Positions 228 through 27,959 of a stretch of 36,568 bases of DNA are shown one piece after another. Position 1 is the first letter of the stretch. Every line of letters begins with the position of its first letter. The stretch is from Chloroflexota bacterium. Lineage in GTDB: Bacteria; Chloroflexota; Dehalococcoidia; JACPQF01. Under the pieces are notes generated by a model. It was not told the DNA's origin. It searched no databases and worked only from the letters and a program-made list of their open reading frames with translations. Position numbers and translations under genes: made by a program. The stretch spans positions 1 to 36,568 of the forward strand of contig JACPQF010000095.1 of the NCBI GenBank assembly GCA_016190625.1, written 5' to 3'.

Positions 228-265
228 GTAGGGGCGAATCTTTCCGCCGAAGGATTCGCCCCTAC
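228..265. repeat. 38-bp palindrome of the GTAGGGGCG family
   Basis: GTAGGGGCGAATC (228-240) is the exact reverse complement of GATTCGCCCCTAC (253-265), and the centre is also partly self-complementary. A nearly identical 38-bp copy lies at 19210-19247, with shorter or decayed relatives at 1749, 2638, 22414, 22449 and 29474. The rest of 1-492 contains only the hairpins listed; no gene or gene remnant was recognised there. Confidence 0.85.
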
Positions 266-350
266 GGGATTGGACCACCCCGTACCGTGGGACTACTGCG
301 TAGGTTCAGTTAGATGAGTGCAATCGCAGCAGCCCAAGCACCTGGACGAT

Positions 351-3088: not shown

Positions 3089-3116
3089 AGTCCTTCGTCA
3101 GAAGGACCGTCAGCTT
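3089..3116. repeat. Hairpin repeat AGCTGACGGTCCTTC...GAAGGACT, copy 1
   Basis: On the minus strand this reads AGCTGACGGTCCTTC, a 4-base loop, GAAGGACT. The same unit with a different loop lies at 11751-11777, so it is a dispersed repeat. Flanking DNA (3160-3200) has further GCTGAC-type words. Confidence 0.6.
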
Positions 3117-8087: not shown

Positions 8088-8576
8088 ATGGAAATACCTT
8101 TCGTCAACGCCACAAGACGCAATCACGCATTGGAACACGCCACGATTGCCGTGCTACTTCACCGGCTCGGACCCGCTCTGCGTCTCATGGGAAGGTCGAC
8201 CGCCAAGGGATTCTACATCTACGGCGACATACCCACCGATGAGGTCGTGCAGGCGGCAAAAGAAGGCCTAACCAGGCTCAAGAACGGAGAGTCCGAGCTC
8301 GCCGTGTCCCCCCTTTGTGGCACAAACCTCGCCGTCGGCGGCATTCTCGCAGGGGTAGCCTCTCTACTTGCCCTTGGCGGAAAACAGCGCAACGACCGCC
8401 TGAGCCGCGCCATCCTCGCAGCCACAGGAGCGCTAGTTCTGGCGCAGCCATTGGGAAGACTCGTGCAGAAGCACGTGACGACCAGCGCCAAGGTGGATGG
8501 GGTGAAGATCTCCCGCATTCTCCGCAACGGCAACAGCCGTTGGGTAATTCACAAGGTGGAGACGTCCGAGAAGTAA
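8088..8576 (+). CDS. NHALEHATI-motif membrane protein (DUF6391-like)
   Basis: A 162-residue protein of unknown function. The N-terminus carries NHALEHATI at about residues 13-21, which I associate with the DUF6391 family of Chloroflexota and cyanobacteria; that naming is from memory. Two short hydrophobic stretches (~84-100 and ~122-140) suggest membrane association. The conserved His-Glu-His cluster could bind metal, but this is a guess. The start has a strong ribosome site (GGGAGGAG) and the promoter above. Its TAA (8574-8576) directly abuts the stop codon of the opposing gene (8577), with no bases between. Confidence 0.75.
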   Translation: MEIPFVNATRRNHALEHATIAVLLHRLGPALRLMGRSTAKGFYIYGDIPTDEVVQAAKEGLTRLKNGESELAVSPLCGTNLAVGGILAGVASLLALGGKQRNDRLSRAILAATGALVLAQPLGRLVQKHVTTSAKVDGVKISRILRNGNSRWVIHKVETSEK

Positions 8577-9365
8577 TCACGGGGACAGGAATCGCGTTTC
8601 GAGGCCTTGGAGAAAACCGTCTCCAGCCAGCGCCCCCAGGATGGCGTCGATCTCTTTTAGAAGAGAGCGGCTGGACTGGCGCGCGGCCATCACGTACGGT
8701 TCGTCGGTGAACGGACCGCCGGCGATGCGGAGATCTCTTTTGTTCTGAGTCAGCACGGCGGCCGTCACGCGGTCGGCGATCAGGGCATCGAGCTGGCCTG
8801 TAGACAGAGCCGCGGCTCCGGCTTCGAGCGACTCGAAAGGCCTGAGGGACAGGCCCGGCTGCGCTCTTGCCATTTTCCTCGCTTCCAACTCGGCGGCAGA
8901 GCCGATTTCAACGCCCAGCGTGCCCGACTCCAGATCTTGGGGGCGGGTAATCTGTCGGGAGCCGCTTCGCACCATGAACACCTGGCCGGCGTTGAAGTAG
9001 CTACGAGAGAATCCTATCTCCTTCCCGTGCTCCCAGGCAGGGCTGATGGCGGCGACCGCCACGTCGGCTTTGCGGGCAACGAGGGCGTCGAACACGCTGG
9101 CAATGTCAATTCCCACGAAGGTCGCGCCGGCTCCTAGCCGCCTTGCCAGCTCGCGTCCTAGCTCGACGTCGTAGCCTGCCGGTTGTCCTTCGCCGTCGAG
9201 GTAAGAAAAGGGCGGGTAGGAGGGATCCGTAGCGATCCGCAGCACCCCTCCTTGTCTCACCCGGTCGAGGCTATCGTCGGCTCTTGCCCTGCCGCCGCAG
9301 CCCGCCGCAACGATGGCCACGCCCAGGAAAATCAAGCTGAGTCTCAAGGGGATACTTCTTACCAT
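8577..9365 (-). CDS. Solute-binding lipoprotein, family 3 (amino-acid type)
   Basis: Periplasmic-type ABC transporter binding protein anchored as a lipoprotein. The first 23 residues form a signal ending in the lipobox VAAGC (Cys23). The mature part follows the SBP_bac_3 pattern: GVLRIATDPSYPPFSY, then GYDVELGRELARRL, DVAVAAISP and a final LDALIADRVTAA region. The frame is open to 9524, but ATG at 9365 is chosen because the signal peptide starts there and GGAG lies 9 bases upstream. No permease or ATPase gene is nearby, so it is an orphan component. Ligand unknown, probably a polar amino acid. Its start region is shared with the M28 peptidase gene (see repeat). Confidence 0.9.
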   Translation of the reverse strand: MVRSIPLRLSLIFLGVAIVAAGCGGRARADDSLDRVRQGGVLRIATDPSYPPFSYLDGEGQPAGYDVELGRELARRLGAGATFVGIDIASVFDALVARKADVAVAAISPAWEHGKEIGFSRSYFNAGQVFMVRSGSRQITRPQDLESGTLGVEIGSAAELEARKMARAQPGLSLRPFESLEAGAAALSTGQLDALIADRVTAAVLTQNKRDLRIAGGPFTDEPYVMAARQSSRSLLKEIDAILGALAGDGFLQGLETRFLSP

Positions 9366-9399
9366 GAGGGAATGCTCCGATCCGTTACCTTGGCTTATG
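9323..9399. repeat. 77-bp start-region cassette, copy A
   Basis: Matches 11621-11697 at 72 of 77 positions with no gaps. It covers upstream DNA, ribosome site, start codon and signal-peptide codons of the binding-protein gene. Similarity fades within the lipobox region and stops abruptly on the upstream side, where copy A joins the CoA-transferase remnant. Confidence 0.9.
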
Positions 9400-9401
9400 T
9401 C

Positions 9402-9512
9402 GCCGACCAGGCCAGCCTCGCGATGGGCCAGCACAACGGTTACGTCCTTGGCGAGCTTGGTCTGACGCCCGGGGAGATCGGCGCTCTGGAGAACGACGGG
9501 ATCCGCTACTAG
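9402..9512 (+). pseudogene. 3' remnant of a CaiB/BaiF (family III) CoA-transferase
   Basis: Plus-strand translation gives MGQHNGYVLGELGLTPGEIG followed by ALENDGIRY and a stop. This closely resembles the normal C-terminus of family III CoA-transferases (G-x-H-N-x-x-V-L-x-E-L-x-G-L). Nothing upstream in any frame continues the enzyme: the match begins just after the shared 77-bp cassette ends. It lies antisense to the open 5' extension of the binding-protein frame, which argues that this extension is not translated. Identified from motif only. Confidence 0.6.
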
Positions 9513-9588
9513 GCAGCGCGCCATGCCGGCTGCTCACGCGGCCTGGTAATCTTCAATCCATACGGCTAGAGGAAAGCGCCCACCGAGG

Positions 9589-9834
9589 CTACGAAGCGAC
9601 CGAGGCATCGAGAACGTACTCCGGGACCTCAACCACGCCTCTCGGCCTCCTCGCGACCAGCCGAATGATCTCACTCGCAGAGATGTCCATTGGCTTCATG
9701 TGTTCGCGCAACTCCATCATGTGATCGTAAATTGCTCGCCGTCTCTCAATTTCCTTTTGCGAGGGCGGGTGTGGCTTAGGCACGACGATGCGCGGGATCT
9801 GGCCGGTTGAGGGTATGTCTCTTTCCTGTTCCAC
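9589..9834 (-). CDS. VapB-like antitoxin fused to a PIN-domain stub
   Basis: 81 residues, GTG start with AAGGAGGAGG just upstream. The middle (RRRAIYDHMMELREHMKPMD, then ISASEIIRLVARR) resembles the charged helical antitoxins placed before PIN toxins. The last residues, EYVLDASVAS, look like the first strand of a VapC PIN domain (hydrophobic-LDASVA with the first acidic active-site residue), after which a TAG ends the frame. No PIN continuation is visible in any frame downstream. Most likely a toxin-antitoxin pair whose toxin was deleted, leaving its first codons fused to the antitoxin. Whether the product is made or functional is unknown. Confidence 0.5.
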   Translation of the reverse strand: MEQERDIPSTGQIPRIVVPKPHPPSQKEIERRRAIYDHMMELREHMKPMDISASEIIRLVARRPRGVVEVPEYVLDASVAS

Positions 9835-10002
9835 TTTCCTCCTCCTTCTCGTTCCGTCGAGGCATTTTACCCTACTCAGAGCATCTTCTCAAGCTGTGCT
9901 GGTTTGATGCCGACAAGAGCCTCCGATGGCGATCGGTGCAAGACCATCCAAATGTTGAGTGGACCCGCAAATAGTGGACTGCCTCCGGCGAAACCTTCCA
10001 TA

Positions 10003-10011
10003 TGCTATAAT
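10003..10011 (+). promoter_or_regulatory. Extended -10 element TGCTATAAT
   Basis: A perfect extended -10 with no convincing -35 at 17 bases. It would start a transcript near 10018 running into the AT-richer stretch at 10079. Between 9835 and 10078 nothing else was recognised. Confidence 0.45.
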
Positions 10012-10078
10012 CCCACTCCAAGGGAAGACACAAGGTTCTTGCCGTTCAAGCGCAGGCGAAGGGATGTGACGGATAAGT

Positions 10079-10287
10079 ATGATCACAGCCTGTGAGATTA
10101 GAAAGATACTTGAGCTACCAGAATTTCGACGGGATTTGGGCGAATTGAGTTCCTTTGCCGCCAGTACTTTAGCATTCTTGACGCTCAGCAATCTCTCGTC
10201 AAGGTGCATTGCCTCAAGGGAAACGAGGCGATCGGCATTCAGATTAGCCCCGTCAGCGGTCGGGGACGGGGACTCGCACGATCTTGA
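10079..10287 (+). pseudogene. Possible frameshifted small gene, unidentified
   Basis: From ATG 10079 the frame reads MITACEIRKILELPEFRRDL, then GELSSF. About there a second frame takes over as RQYFSILDAQQSLVKVHCLK, then GNEAIGIQISP, ending at TGA 10285-10287. Both halves look protein-like, and the stretch is visibly less GC-rich than its neighbours. Together with the extended -10 at 10003 this suggests a small gene broken by one frameshift, or a sequencing error. I do not recognise the family. It is antisense to the zinc ribbon gene at its 3' end, so at most one is likely to be intact there. Confidence 0.3.
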
Positions 10288-10396
10288 CCACGAGCTCGCC
10301 GCCGCATTGAGGACATCGGGCGGCGGCGAGGGGCAAATCAACGCGGCAGCGCGGACACCAGAGCCGCTTCTCGTTGATCCATTGCGGTGTTTTCAC
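10253..10396 (-). CDS. Mini zinc-ribbon protein, 47 aa, overlapping the M28 gene
   Basis: A hidden reading frame: GTG start at 10396, stop at 10253. The product has CPRC near 14-17 and CPQC near 29-32 with a GGELVVKIVRV strand after, the spacing of a small rubredoxin-like zinc ribbon. AAGGAGGGAG lies about 9 bases before the GTG. Its first 59 bases overlap the end of the M28 peptidase gene in another frame, so it should be translationally coupled to it. Function unknown; stand-alone ribbons of this size often bind nucleic acid or protein. The motif pair makes chance unlikely, but no homologue was checked. Confidence 0.55.
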   Translation of the reverse strand: MKTPQWINEKRLWCPRCRVDLPLAAARCPQCGGELVVKIVRVPVPDR

Positions 10397-11663
10397 CCTT
10401 CGCCTCTCCCTCCTTGGCCAATCTCTCCAACATGCCTAACGCTATTTTGCCCGCTATCTCCAGGCGGTCGGGCTTGACGAACTCGGGCAGATCGTTCTTG
10501 GTGTGGTAGTTGGGGTCCTCCTGCCAGTAGACGAACAGCGTCGGTATCCCCGCGTCGGCAAAGCTAGCGTGGTCGCTGGCCGAGGAAAGGTGCTCGTCGA
10601 GGTCCCCCGCCTCGACTTCCAGGTCCTTGGCGATGGCCTTGGCTTCGTCCACCAGCTTCCGGTCGCCGCCGAACCTCAAGTCGTCGCCTACGCCTACCAT
10701 GTCGAAGTTGATCATGGCGACCATCCTATCCCGTTCCTCTTTCTTGAGCGACTCCACGTAGCGCCGGCTGCCGATTAGCCCCAGCTCTTCGGCGCCAAAG
10801 GCCACGAACCGCAGCCCGAAGGGGTAGGCCCTCGTCGCCGTTACCCTGGCCAGCTCGATCACCGTGCCCACTCCCGAGGCGTTGTCGTTGGCTCCCGGGC
10901 CGGCCTCGACCGAATCGCAGTGAGCGCCGAAGATGACGAGCTTCTGATTTTTGGTCGCCCTGGTGCCCACCACGTTCTCGCTCGACTTGGCGGCCATCTC
11001 GGCGTCCACCAGCAGGCGCACCGCGGTCGCTCCCTGCCCGAGGAGAGCGCGGAGGCGCTGACCCTCTTCCAGGGTGACCGACACGGCCGGGATGGTCGAG
11101 GGATTGGCCAGGCTGCCTCTAAGCTCGCCGCCGACGTTGTTGTAGACGATTACTCCCACCGCTCCGGCGTCGGCCGCGTTGGCCACTTTGCCGCCGAAGG
11201 TGATCTCGCCCCGCTTGATCAGGGCGATCTTGTCCTTTACGTCGATCCGCCCGAAGTCCTCCTTGCTGCCCCCACCGGCGTCGACCAGCTCGGCAGCTCT
11301 CTCGCCCGAGGCGGAGAAGGTCAGCGCCCTGGCCTTGAAAGTCGCCGACACCGGCCGGGTAACCTCGAGCTCGACCTGCTTTTCCATGTAGGTGCGGTAG
11401 TCGAACCGGGGCTTTTCCACCTGCAGCCGCTGGGAGCGAAACTGGTCGGCAATGTAATTGGCCGCCATCTCGGCCTTTTCGGTGGAGGCCGGGCGGGAGC
11501 CGACGTCCGTCGCCAGATAGCGAACGTGTTGATACGCCCGCTCGCCGGAGAACGGCTCCTCCCTCTGCTGCCCGGAGCCGCCGGGCACGGCGCTGCAGCC
11601 CAACGCGACGGTGGCGACGGCCAGGAAAATCAAGCTGAGTCTCAGGGGGATACTTTTTACCAT
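10338..11663 (-). CDS. M28-family zinc aminopeptidase lipoprotein with PA domain
   Basis: A 441-residue exported metallopeptidase. The signal ends in lipobox VALGC (Cys23). A PA (protease-associated) insert spans ~125-215. The catalytic domain shows the two-zinc set of the M28 aminopeptidase Y/S group: His248 (AHCDS), Asp260 (GANDNASG), Glu292-Glu293 (AEELG), Asp321 (NFDMVG) and His387 (NYHTKND). Likely role: release of N-terminal amino acids from peptides outside the cell, complementing the subtilase. The frame is open to 11720, but ATG 11663 starts the signal peptide and has GGAG upstream. It overlaps the 47-residue zinc ribbon at its 3' end. Confidence 0.93.
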   Translation of the reverse strand: MVKSIPLRLSLIFLAVATVALGCSAVPGGSGQQREEPFSGERAYQHVRYLATDVGSRPASTEKAEMAANYIADQFRSQRLQVEKPRFDYRTYMEKQVELEVTRPVSATFKARALTFSASGERAAELVDAGGGSKEDFGRIDVKDKIALIKRGEITFGGKVANAADAGAVGVIVYNNVGGELRGSLANPSTIPAVSVTLEEGQRLRALLGQGATAVRLLVDAEMAAKSSENVVGTRATKNQKLVIFGAHCDSVEAGPGANDNASGVGTVIELARVTATRAYPFGLRFVAFGAEELGLIGSRRYVESLKKEERDRMVAMINFDMVGVGDDLRFGGDRKLVDEAKAIAKDLEVEAGDLDEHLSSASDHASFADAGIPTLFVYWQEDPNYHTKNDLPEFVKPDRLEIAGKIALGMLERLAKEGEAKGENTAMDQREAALVSALPR

Positions 11664-11697
11664 GAGGGAAAGCTCCGATCCGTTTCCTTGACTTATG
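11621..11697. repeat. 77-bp start-region cassette, copy B
   Basis: The second copy of the 9323-9399 repeat, covering ribosome site, start codon and signal-peptide codons of the M28 gene. Differences are five substitutions without indels. Upstream of 11697 the two loci are unrelated. Confidence 0.9.
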
Positions 11698-11738
11698 AGG
11701 CAGGCAAGGGTATGATGCACCAGGCTGATAACCTGCGC

Positions 11739-11777
11739 CCGTCAGACACAAGCTGACGGTCCTTCCAAAGAAGGACT
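11739..11777. repeat. Two consecutive hairpins, including GACGGTCCTTC repeat copy 2
   Basis: CCGTCAG (11739-11745) pairs with CTGACGG (11753-11759); directly after, GTCCTTC (11759-11765) pairs with GAAGGAC (11770-11776). The second part plus AGCTGACG matches the minus strand of 3089-3116. It lies between the divergent M28 and comEA genes, so it could affect either transcript, but dispersed copies suggest a repeat. Confidence 0.6.
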
Positions 11778-11823
11778 ATTTCCACTATAGCAGAAACGCC
11801 CCGCGAGGGAAAGGAGGCGGACC

Positions 11824-15841: not shown

Positions 15842-16041
15842 GTAGGGGCGAAGCGTTCGCAGGACCGGTCTATTCGGAGATTCTAACATCTTTGCGAATG
15901 CTTCGCCCGCCCGGTTAGTTGCGACGCCCGGCTTCATCGTAGGGAACAGGCGTGGGCGTGTTGCGATGGTGGGGTGGGCGAAGCATTTGCGAACTAGCAT
16001 AAAAGCCGACCCGAGGCCCAGCGCAAACGCTTCGCCCCTAC
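15842..16041. repeat. ~200-bp MITE-like element, copy 1
   Basis: Ends are inverted: GTAGGGGCGAAGCGTTCGC at the left and the complement of GTAGGGGCGAAGCGTTTGC at the right (18 of 19 match). Inside, TTTGCGAATGCTTCGCCC near 15891 and GGGCGAAGCATTTGCGAA near 15976 form a second inverted pair, so the single strand folds into two successive hairpins. A related 201-bp element is at 27759-27959. No coding frame inside is convincing. It occupies most of the 383-base gap 15728-16110; the remainder shows nothing else. Confidence 0.8.
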
Positions 16042-16110: not shown

Positions 16111-17274
16111 CTAATGCTCCCCGCCCTCGCCGTTTAGCTCGTTGTAGATGAGCATCAGCTCTTTGTCGAAGAGCGGACGCTTCAGGGTAACGGCCATATG
16201 GCGGGCGCGGGCGAGAATGGCGTGCGCCGTCTCGGTTGGCAGATCTATGCCGAACTCGCGGGAGAACTTGAAAGAGACGGTATGGGAGCCGCTATGCTTG
16301 CCGACGAGGATCTGCCGCTGCAACCCGACCTCCTCCGGCGTAAAGGCCTCGTAGTTCCGCGGGTCCTTGATGACGGCGTCGGCGTGAATGCCCGATTCGT
16401 GGGCGAAGATGTTGGTGCCGACGATGGCTTTCCAGATGGGCACCGCCCGGGCCGAGGCCTCGGCTACGTACTCGGCGACTTCCCGGAACCGCTGGGTGGC
16501 TATCGGCAGTCTAACGCCCTCGACGTGCCTGAGCGCCATCACCACTTCTTCCAGCGCCGCGCTGCCGCTGCGCTCACCCAGACCGCCGATGGTCACGGTG
16601 ACGCAGTTGGCTCCGCCCTTTAGCCCGGCGATGACGTTGGCCGTCGCCATGCCGAAATCATTGTGGGTGTGCATCTCGACCTCGCCTTTGAGTCGCTTGG
16701 TAAGATCGCTGATAACCAAGCCCGCCGACAGGGGGTCGAGGATGCCGAGGGTATCGCAGAACCGTACGCGGCAGGCCCCTTCATCGAAGGCGGCGTTGAA
16801 GTAGGTAGCGAGAAAATCTATTCCCGAGCGGGATGCATCTTCGGCACTGACCACGAAGTTCAGGCCCAAACGATGAGCCTCGCGCGCCGCCTCGATCATC
16901 TTGGTGAGCACCCAGCCGTGAGTCTTGCCGAACTTTCGCTGGACGTGAATATCAGAGGTGGAGATGGAGATGGTTACGGTGGAGAGTCCGCACTTCGCCG
17001 CCCAGCCGATGTCCTCGACGTTGGCCCGGCAGAAGCCGATAGCCTCGTCTTTGAATTCTCGCGCCACCGCCGCCAGTATCTGGCGCTCCTCCTCGCAGAG
17101 CCAGGGGCAGCCCACCTCGAACTGGTTGACGCCGATCTCTTTCAGAAGCCGGGCGATCTGCAGCTTCTCCTGCTGGCTGAAGATAACGCCAGCTTCCTGC
17201 TCTCCGTCTCGCATGGTGAGGTCGATGAGCTTTATGTCCTCGGCCCGAAGGGTTCTGGTGCTTAGAACTTCCAC
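16111..17274 (-). CDS. Homocitrate synthase-family enzyme (second of tandem pair)
   Basis: An acyl-CoA condensing enzyme of the isopropylmalate/homocitrate synthase (DRE-TIM) family, NifV branch. Key residues: Arg22-Asp23-x-Glu25 (TMRDGEQEAG), the STSDIHVQRK segment, RFCDTLGILDP, and the metal ligands His202 and His204 (MHTHNDFGMA), followed by GGLGERSGSAALEEVV. 387 residues, without the C-terminal LeuA regulatory domain. GTG start at 17274 behind AGGAGG; the start overlaps the end of the upstream paralogue by 13 bases. Product could be homocitrate, (R)-citrate (Re-citrate synthase) or citramalate; sequence reading alone does not decide. No nif genes are present. Confidence 0.88.
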   Translation of the reverse strand: MEVLSTRTLRAEDIKLIDLTMRDGEQEAGVIFSQQEKLQIARLLKEIGVNQFEVGCPWLCEEERQILAAVAREFKDEAIGFCRANVEDIGWAAKCGLSTVTISISTSDIHVQRKFGKTHGWVLTKMIEAAREAHRLGLNFVVSAEDASRSGIDFLATYFNAAFDEGACRVRFCDTLGILDPLSAGLVISDLTKRLKGEVEMHTHNDFGMATANVIAGLKGGANCVTVTIGGLGERSGSAALEEVVMALRHVEGVRLPIATQRFREVAEYVAEASARAVPIWKAIVGTNIFAHESGIHADAVIKDPRNYEAFTPEEVGLQRQILVGKHSGSHTVSFKFSREFGIDLPTETAHAILARARHMAVTLKRPLFDKELMLIYNELNGEGGEH

Positions 17275-18404
17275 TTGCGTCCTCCTGCAACCTTACTTTC
17301 GTACAGCTCGAGCACTTCTTCATCGTAGAGGGCCCGCTTGAGATCAATACTGCGCGACTGGAGAAGCGGGAGAAAGCGCGAGGCCTCTTCGAAAGGAAGG
17401 AAATAGCGGTATTGAGCCAGCTTGGCCTGCACGCAGGCGACGCCGCTGTACTTGCCGATTATCAAGCGCCGCTCGAGGCCGACATCCTCCGGCGAGAACA
17501 CCTCGTAGGAAGCGGTATCGGTGAGCACCCCTTCTGCCCGCCCCTGCGACTCGTAGGTGAAAACGTTGGACCCTGTGATCGGTTTCGACGGCGGCAGAGA
17601 GCGGTGAGAGGCGCGCGCCACGTACTCGGACAGCTCCCGAAACTTGGTGGTGTCGATTCCGAGGTCCGTTCCCACAATGCATTTCATGGCCATCACCACC
17701 TCTTCCAGACAGGCATTCCCCGCCCGCTCGCCGAGGCCGTTAATCGTGGTATTGACGTAGGTGGCTCCAGCTCTGACCCCGGCGAGGGAGTTGGCCGTCG
17801 CCATGCCGAAGTCGTTGTGGGTGTGCATCTCTACTTCGAGACTGGTCTTGTCGATCAGCCTACTGATGCGGTTGTAAGTGATGAACGGGTCCATGACTCC
17901 TACCGTGTCGCAGTATCGCAGCCGGTCGGCGCCGGCTTCCTTCGCTGCCAGAGCATACTCCGCCAGAAAGTCCTGGTCTGCTCTCGACGCATCTTCGCCG
18001 TTGACCGAAACGTACAAGCCGTTGTTCTTGGCAAACTCCGTAGCGGTGCGAATGTTATCGAGCACCCACTTTCTGGTCTGCCGCAGCTTGTGCTGGATGT
18101 GGATGTCCGAGGTCGAGATGCTGAGCGCAACCGCTTTGACCCCGCACTCCAAAGATGTCTTGATGTCGCTAATCACCGGCCGATTCCAGGCAATGATGCT
18201 GGCTTTCAGGCCAAGGTCCATGATGGCACATATGGCCTCCTTCTCGTCGCCGCCCATAGCCGGGATACCGGCCTCGATCTGGTGGACGCCGATGGCATCC
18301 AGCATCTTGGCAATGGTGATCTTCTCCTCGTTGGTGAAAACCACGCCGGCCGTTTGCTCACCGTCCCGCAGGGTAGTGTCGTCAATGAATACTTTCTTAG
18401 TCAT
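17262..18404 (-). CDS. Homocitrate synthase-family enzyme (first of tandem pair)
   Basis: A 380-residue paralogue of the next gene. It has Arg13-Asp14-x-Glu16 (TLRDGEQTAG), STSDIHIQHK, YCDTVGVMDP, His194 and His196 (MHTHNDFGMA) and NGLGERAGNACLEEVV. All catalytic and metal residues of the family are present in both copies, so neither looks like a dead subunit. Frame is open to 18467 but ATG 18404 has GAGGAGGG four bases before it, and the excluded part is an intergenic palindrome. The two genes overlap and must be co-expressed. Possible roles: homocitrate for a lysine-type pathway or cofactor, or Re-citrate synthase as reported in Dehalococcoides. Assignment open. Confidence 0.88.
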   Translation of the reverse strand: MTKKVFIDDTTLRDGEQTAGVVFTNEEKITIAKMLDAIGVHQIEAGIPAMGGDEKEAICAIMDLGLKASIIAWNRPVISDIKTSLECGVKAVALSISTSDIHIQHKLRQTRKWVLDNIRTATEFAKNNGLYVSVNGEDASRADQDFLAEYALAAKEAGADRLRYCDTVGVMDPFITYNRISRLIDKTSLEVEMHTHNDFGMATANSLAGVRAGATYVNTTINGLGERAGNACLEEVVMAMKCIVGTDLGIDTTKFRELSEYVARASHRSLPPSKPITGSNVFTYESQGRAEGVLTDTASYEVFSPEDVGLERRLIIGKYSGVACVQAKLAQYRYFLPFEEASRFLPLLQSRSIDLKRALYDEEVLELYESKVAGGRKWKF

Positions 18405-18422
18405 GAATCCCTCCTCGTGTTG

Positions 18423-18470
18423 GGGGTGAGGGGTCAGGGGCCGGGGGACAGTCCCCTGACCCCTCACCCC
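18423..18470. repeat. Perfect 18-bp-arm G/C-rich inverted repeat
   Basis: GGGGTGAGGGGTCAGGGG (18423-18440) is exactly complementary to 18453-18470, with a 12-base loop that itself contains GGGGGA and TCCCC. It lies 19 bases upstream of the first synthase start, within the ribosome-site approach, after the HD gene. In mRNA it would be an extremely stable hairpin, able to block read-through or pause polymerase. The arms also carry G-runs able to form a quadruplex. No T tract, so not a standard terminator. Confidence 0.8.
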
Positions 18471-19209: not shown

Positions 19210-19247
19210 GTAGGGGCGAATCCTTCCGCAGAAGGATTCGCCCCTAC
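19210..19247. repeat. 38-bp palindrome of the GTAGGGGCG family
   Basis: Perfect arms GTAGGGGCGAATCCTTC and its complement surround a 4-base centre (CGCA). Nearly identical to the copy at 228-265. It lies between the HD gene and the end of the Thr/Pro-rich gene. Confidence 0.85.
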
Positions 19248-19281
19248 GATCACGATTGACTGACGCATGCGCCGTTCGCCC

Positions 19282-27758: not shown

Positions 27759-27959
27759 GTAGGGGCTAAGCATTCGCAGAACCAGTTACTTCGGAGCTGC
27801 CAATAAACTTTGCGAATGCTTGGCCCGCCCGGTGTGTTGCTGCGTCAAGACTGTTCGCGTTAAACAGGCTTCGTGGAAGAACAGGCGCGGGGCGGGCGAA
27901 GCACTGGCGAAGAGGGTGAAGGGCTAGTCCAAGGTCCGGCGCCAATGCTTCGCCCCTAC
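27759..27959. repeat. ~200-bp MITE-like element, copy 2
   Basis: Left end GTAGGGGCTAAGCATTCGC, right end complement of GTAGGGGCGAAGCATTGGC; inside, TTTGCGAATGCTTGGCCC and GGGCGAAGCACTGGCGAA repeat the internal pair of the copy at 15842. The ends and internal arms are conserved, the connecting parts have drifted. It fills about half of the 437-base gap 27703-28139; the remainder holds the promoter at 28080 and nothing else recognised. Confidence 0.8.

Follow-up and report, generated by a model that had tools for sequence, protein, structure and literature searches.

A near-identical start segment shared by two unrelated lipoprotein genes meets a probable deletion scar in a Chloroflexota genome

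Two lipoprotein genes lie on the minus strand of the window, by which we mean the whole 36,568-nucleotide stretch of Chloroflexota DNA that was analyzed. One encodes a solute-binding protein (SBP) and the other a PA-domain M28 peptidase (M28). The mature proteins had been described as unrelated, which Pfam bears out: SBP matches SBP_bac_3 (PF00497), whereas M28 matches PA (PF02225) and Peptidase_M28 (PF04389). By Pfam both are ordinary members of their groups, the SBP_bac_3 amino-acid binding lipoproteins and the PA/M28 aminopeptidase-like lipoproteins, and the start that they share is their sole oddity. The signals of both proteins are Sec/SPII-type lipobox signal peptides, and neither protein is a type III effector. 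SBP is flanked by a convergent DUF6391 gene on one side and by the end of a family III CoA-transferase gene on the other (Table 1).

Table 1. Features of the locus and their positions in the window.
Feature	Position	Strand	Remarks
DUF6391 gene	8088..8576	+	PF19928, E 2.5e-43; convergent with SBP; synteny anchor; same pair in G003, G043 and G064
Solute-binding lipoprotein gene (SBP), SBP_bac_3, 262 aa	8577..9365	-	PF00497, E 5.8e-27; putative recipient
Copy A of the shared start segment	9293..9399	-	SBP leader of 34 nt with GGAG, ATG at 9365, signal-peptide codons, lipobox Cys
End of family III CoA-transferase gene, ~36 codons and stop	9400..9512	+	Abuts copy A; candidate deletion scar
PA-domain M28 peptidase lipoprotein gene (M28), 441 aa	10338..11663	-	PF02225 and Peptidase_M28 PF04389 (E 2.6e-40); putative donor
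Copy B of the shared start segment	11591..11697	-	M28 leader, ATG at 11663, signal peptide, lipobox; putative donor
Divergent M28-comEA intergenic region	11698..11823		Outside the repeat; dispersed 25-28 bp repeat at 11750-11777

The initial annotation had reported a near-identical start of 77 bases in the two genes. This was confirmed, with 72 of 77 bases identical without gaps, and the match proved to be longer. When the window was compared with itself by blastn, copies A and B agreed over 107 bp without gaps (88.8% identity, E 2e-31). The two copies form a direct repeat with a spacing of 2298 bp, and each runs from a leader of 34 nt (beginning at -34) through a GGAG ribosome site and the ATG into the signal peptide as far as the lipobox Cys. 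The 30 bp beyond the 77-bp core, of which 23 are identical, specify the remainder of the signal peptide together with this cysteine. Counted by codon, SBP and M28 agree at 40 of 42 bases in codons 1-14 and at 21 of 27 in codons 15-23, up to the lipobox Cys. For codons 15-23, a set of 41 other lipoprotein starts reached at most 19/27 against SBP and 17/27 against M28, and the anchored extension past the core outscored all of 300 shuffles. The similarity of the two start segments is genuine, and it is sharply limited on both sides: the mature codons of SBP and M28 show no significant similarity past the lipobox Cys, and upstream of 9399 the similarity between the copies is not significant (p about 0.2). 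A gapped extension upstream of 9399 that was suggested by MAFFT was rejected as not significant. Two separate events, or a partial convergence at the lipobox, might explain why the core (93.5%) agrees better than the edge (77%).

We compared the surroundings of SBP with those in three genomes (G003, G043 and G064) of a single genus that belongs to another family than the genome of the window. Their SBP orthologues are convergent with DUF6391 and 42-44% identical to SBP, a distance too great for these genomes to show the ancestral start regions directly. In all three the gene order is DUF6391> <SBP asd> CoA-transferase>, with asd (Semialdhyde_dh/dhC) and a two-domain CoA-transferase family III gene of 750 residues on the strand of DUF6391, and M28 does not adjoin SBP. 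When the best 30 DUF6391 loci in the class were compared, this SBP adjoined DUF6391 only in these three genomes and in the window, and the DUF6391-SBP block is therefore specific. The window reads DUF6391> <SBP, then the shared segment and then the CoA-transferase tail, oriented as in the relatives. The SBP start is about 35 bp from the tail in the window, compared with about 3.3-3.4 kb in the three relatives. Neither asd nor any more CoA-transferase sequence was found in the window. A search of the rest of the genome, a 65%-complete assembly, returned no asd, a result that is uninformative at this completeness and had no positive control.

The tail (ADQASLAMGQHNGYVLGELGLTPGEIGALENDGIRY*) matches a CoA-transferase open reading frame of its own genome at 59% and the C-terminus of the syntenic gene in G064 at 51%, and a strict class-wide search yielded a single weak match. 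It is only ~36 codons long, and its family has many paralogues in the genome; by its position and orientation it would correspond to the asd-linked CoA-transferase. Judged by synteny, ~3.3 kb that held asd and the greater part of the CoA-transferase gene have most likely been lost from the window, and a CoA-transferase tail beside the SBP start is most simply read as a deletion scar. It is less likely that an independent fragment of this abundant family landed there with the order and orientation of the relatives. The earlier suggestion that the CoA-transferase fragment marks the junction is thus upheld by synteny in three relatives, and the junction has the appearance of a deletion scar.

The repeat ends at this CoA-transferase remnant. 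Homology to the CoA-transferase starts at 9402-9411 and none is detectable inside copy A, so that no more than about 10 bp separate the end of the repeat from the scar. In an ungapped comparison, the nine codons ending at 9398 score no better than shuffles, and the conserved motif of the CoA-transferase family is absent from copy A. A gapped match to a paralogue from the same genome (SKTPGYV-DRAS), which would extend the CoA-transferase into the repeat and reverse the direction of copying, was rejected because the conserved residues are absent and the scores are not significant. The shared segment accordingly sits precisely between SBP and the CoA-transferase tail, sequences that are 3.3-3.4 kb apart in the three relatives. 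Such a coincidence is expected if a patch was inserted at the scar, whereas a copy made in the direction from SBP to M28 would have produced it only by chance.

The N-terminal signals of the relatives bear on the direction of copying. The syntenic SBP orthologues (n=3) carry an N-terminal hydrophobic segment without a lipobox Cys (MERLLRAVGAVAFTSLVAALLVGASIRPP), whereas the M28 relatives, which are up to 47% identical, mostly have lipobox-like signal peptides. A scan of genome contigs with the M28 protein gave one distant match only. The type of signal peptide agrees weakly with a transfer from M28 to SBP. Lipobox status alone leaves the direction unfixed, since two SBP relatives from another family of the phylum (f103) do possess lipobox cysteines.

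It had been proposed that one gene gave the other its expression and export signals. Copying or recombination is supported, but the 'expression signals' amount to the ribosome site, the start codon and the 34 nt leader. The similarity stops with this leader, and no shared promoter was identified. Upstream of M28 the DNA continues for about 125 nt past the repeat to comEA, and since this region has no counterpart in front of SBP, a transfer of the promoter is not shown. That the M28 leader forms a riboswitch or other structured RNA was rejected (no Rfam match, z only -1.4). The M28 leader also holds one of ~17 genomic occurrences of a short dispersed repeat (AGTCCTTCTTTGGAAGGACCGTCAGC) that is REP-like and includes a small hairpin; in the window it stands at 11750-11777 and 3089-3116.

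The initial annotation further raised the idea of a reusable export cassette, with additional copies in front of other lipoproteins. We found no such copies. The assembly (3.18 Mb, 160 contigs, 64.9% complete) contains the shared segment twice only, whether searched by DNA or by protein including the reading frame of the leader, and a DNA search at E <= 10 added just chance matches of 15-23 bp. Sixty genomes of the same class, none of them more closely related, gave weak matches of 26-29 bp and no copy beyond chance. The segment was likewise found in neither plasmids nor viral contigs, no repeats specifically bound it, and no mobilising gene is present among the annotated parts of 8.0-12.5 kb. 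A genome-wide cassette was rejected on these grounds for the available 65%-complete assembly.

We consider it fairly probable that the deletion took away the start of SBP and that a copy of the M28 start, located 2.3 kb away, re-headed the gene. The ancestral order would have been the one retained in the three relatives (DUF6391> <SBP asd> CoA-transferase>). A deletion of ~3.3 kb would have removed asd, nearly the whole CoA-transferase gene and the original SBP start together with its N-terminal signal. The junction would have been filled with, or resolved into, a ~107 bp copy of the M28 start reaching from -34 to the lipobox Cys. With this patch fused in frame, translation of SBP would begin at a ribosome site and start codon of M28 origin, and the re-headed protein would be exported via the lipoprotein signal peptide. 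Repair may have proceeded by a templated patch during end joining, or by a duplication of the M28 start followed by fusion through deletion. The direction from M28 to SBP, the combination into a single event and the repair mechanism are what we infer from this arrangement. More tentatively, and with somewhat less than an even chance, one break-repair event may have both deleted the SBP start and inserted in frame a templated copy of the complete M28 module for translation initiation and lipoprotein export, so that a protein lacking a lipobox became a lipoprotein.

Several other histories might account for the shared start. If it was native to SBP and was copied onto M28, a separate deletion of asd and the CoA-transferase gene must by chance have stopped 34 bp ahead of the SBP ATG. 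Some SBP relatives are indeed lipoproteins with a lipobox of their own, and neither gene has a relative near enough to reveal its ancestral signal peptide. We nevertheless regard this direction as unlikely, as the 5' end of the tract would have to meet the deletion junction by chance and it is the syntenic SBP orthologues that lack a lipobox and most M28 relatives that have one. Both genes might also have received the start from a third source, either another lipoprotein gene or a small export cassette present in several copies, hidden in the part missing from an assembly that is 64.9% complete; as neither DNA nor protein searches of this assembly yielded a third copy, and none turned up in the 60 class-level genomes, in viral contigs or in plasmids, we hold this to be very improbable.

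Rated lower still is a two-step variant of the re-heading, in which a larger piece of M28 was duplicated next to SBP, in tandem or dispersed, before a deletion fused its 5' end in frame. The direct orientation of the copies, 2298 bp from each other, would suit it, as would the small orphan open frames in 9513-10337 that resemble remnants, yet no further M28-derived sequence is detectable beside copy A. An origin of the repeat in misassembly, or in chance or convergent likeness of two lipoprotein starts, is barely credible even for a window taken from a fragmented draft genome of 160 contigs. An ungapped match of 107 bp with an E value of 2e-31 that includes 34 bp upstream of the start codon speaks against both, the null comparison among lipoprotein starts against chance. 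An artefact is unlikely because 12 mismatches are spread over the 107 bp, with a longest exact run of about 24 bp, and scattered mismatches are not something that an assembler would create.

Signal sequences diverge so fast that one can rarely see where unrelated secreted proteins obtained theirs. At this locus a stretch of 2.4 kb displays the putative donor and recipient, the limits of the tract and the apparent deletion scar together. If copying did run from M28 to SBP, the capture of a start and signal peptide rescued a beheaded gene, and did so outside the type III effectors that are usually discussed. The closest known idea is terminal reassortment, in which type III effectors carry a transferred N-terminal export signal on unrelated proteins (Stavrinides et al., 2006, as cited in PMC6460904). 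As there, unrelated mature proteins carry a near-identical N-terminal export signal that appears to have been acquired by recombination. Unlike there, the signal is of the Sec/lipoprotein and not the type III kind, the proteins are a transport-binding protein and a peptidase, and the segment includes a 34 nt leader only, without a shown promoter, exists in two copies and lies at a deletion junction. Strictly, SBP and M28 fall outside this class, since neither is a type III effector. Templated insertions at repaired breaks, by MMBIR or end joining, are well described in eukaryotes (PMC8421209, PMC11724301). These resemble our case in that formerly separate sequences are joined at a short patch whose template lay elsewhere; they differ in that the patch in the window is deduced from one fixed, diverged bacterial junction and is an apparently functional gene start. 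We regard the well-delimited copy of a start segment with its deletion scar as real and as an interesting example, but not as a new kind of element.

Some further features of the window were observed. In the remnant-rich interval separating the two lipoprotein genes, an orphan frame of 81 aa (9589-9834, minus strand) has no Pfam or NCBIfam match; over 45 residues it resembles, at 56% similarity, a sequence close to the beginning of contig C25 of genome G000. A zinc-ribbon-like frame of 47 aa (CPRC...CPQC; 10253-10396, minus strand) overlaps the end of the M28 gene. Outside this interval, a direct repeat of ~83 bp with 82% identity, for which there is no obvious reason, occurs at 15842-15922 and 27759-27840, and a second short palindromic repeat (GTAGGGGCGAATCCTTCCGCAGAAGGATTCGCCCCTAC) is present in two copies in the window (228-266 and 19210-19248). 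Finally, two neighbouring genes on the minus strand at 16111-18467, which by eye resemble homocitrate/isopropylmalate synthases, have a stretch of 87 bp in common at 84% identity.
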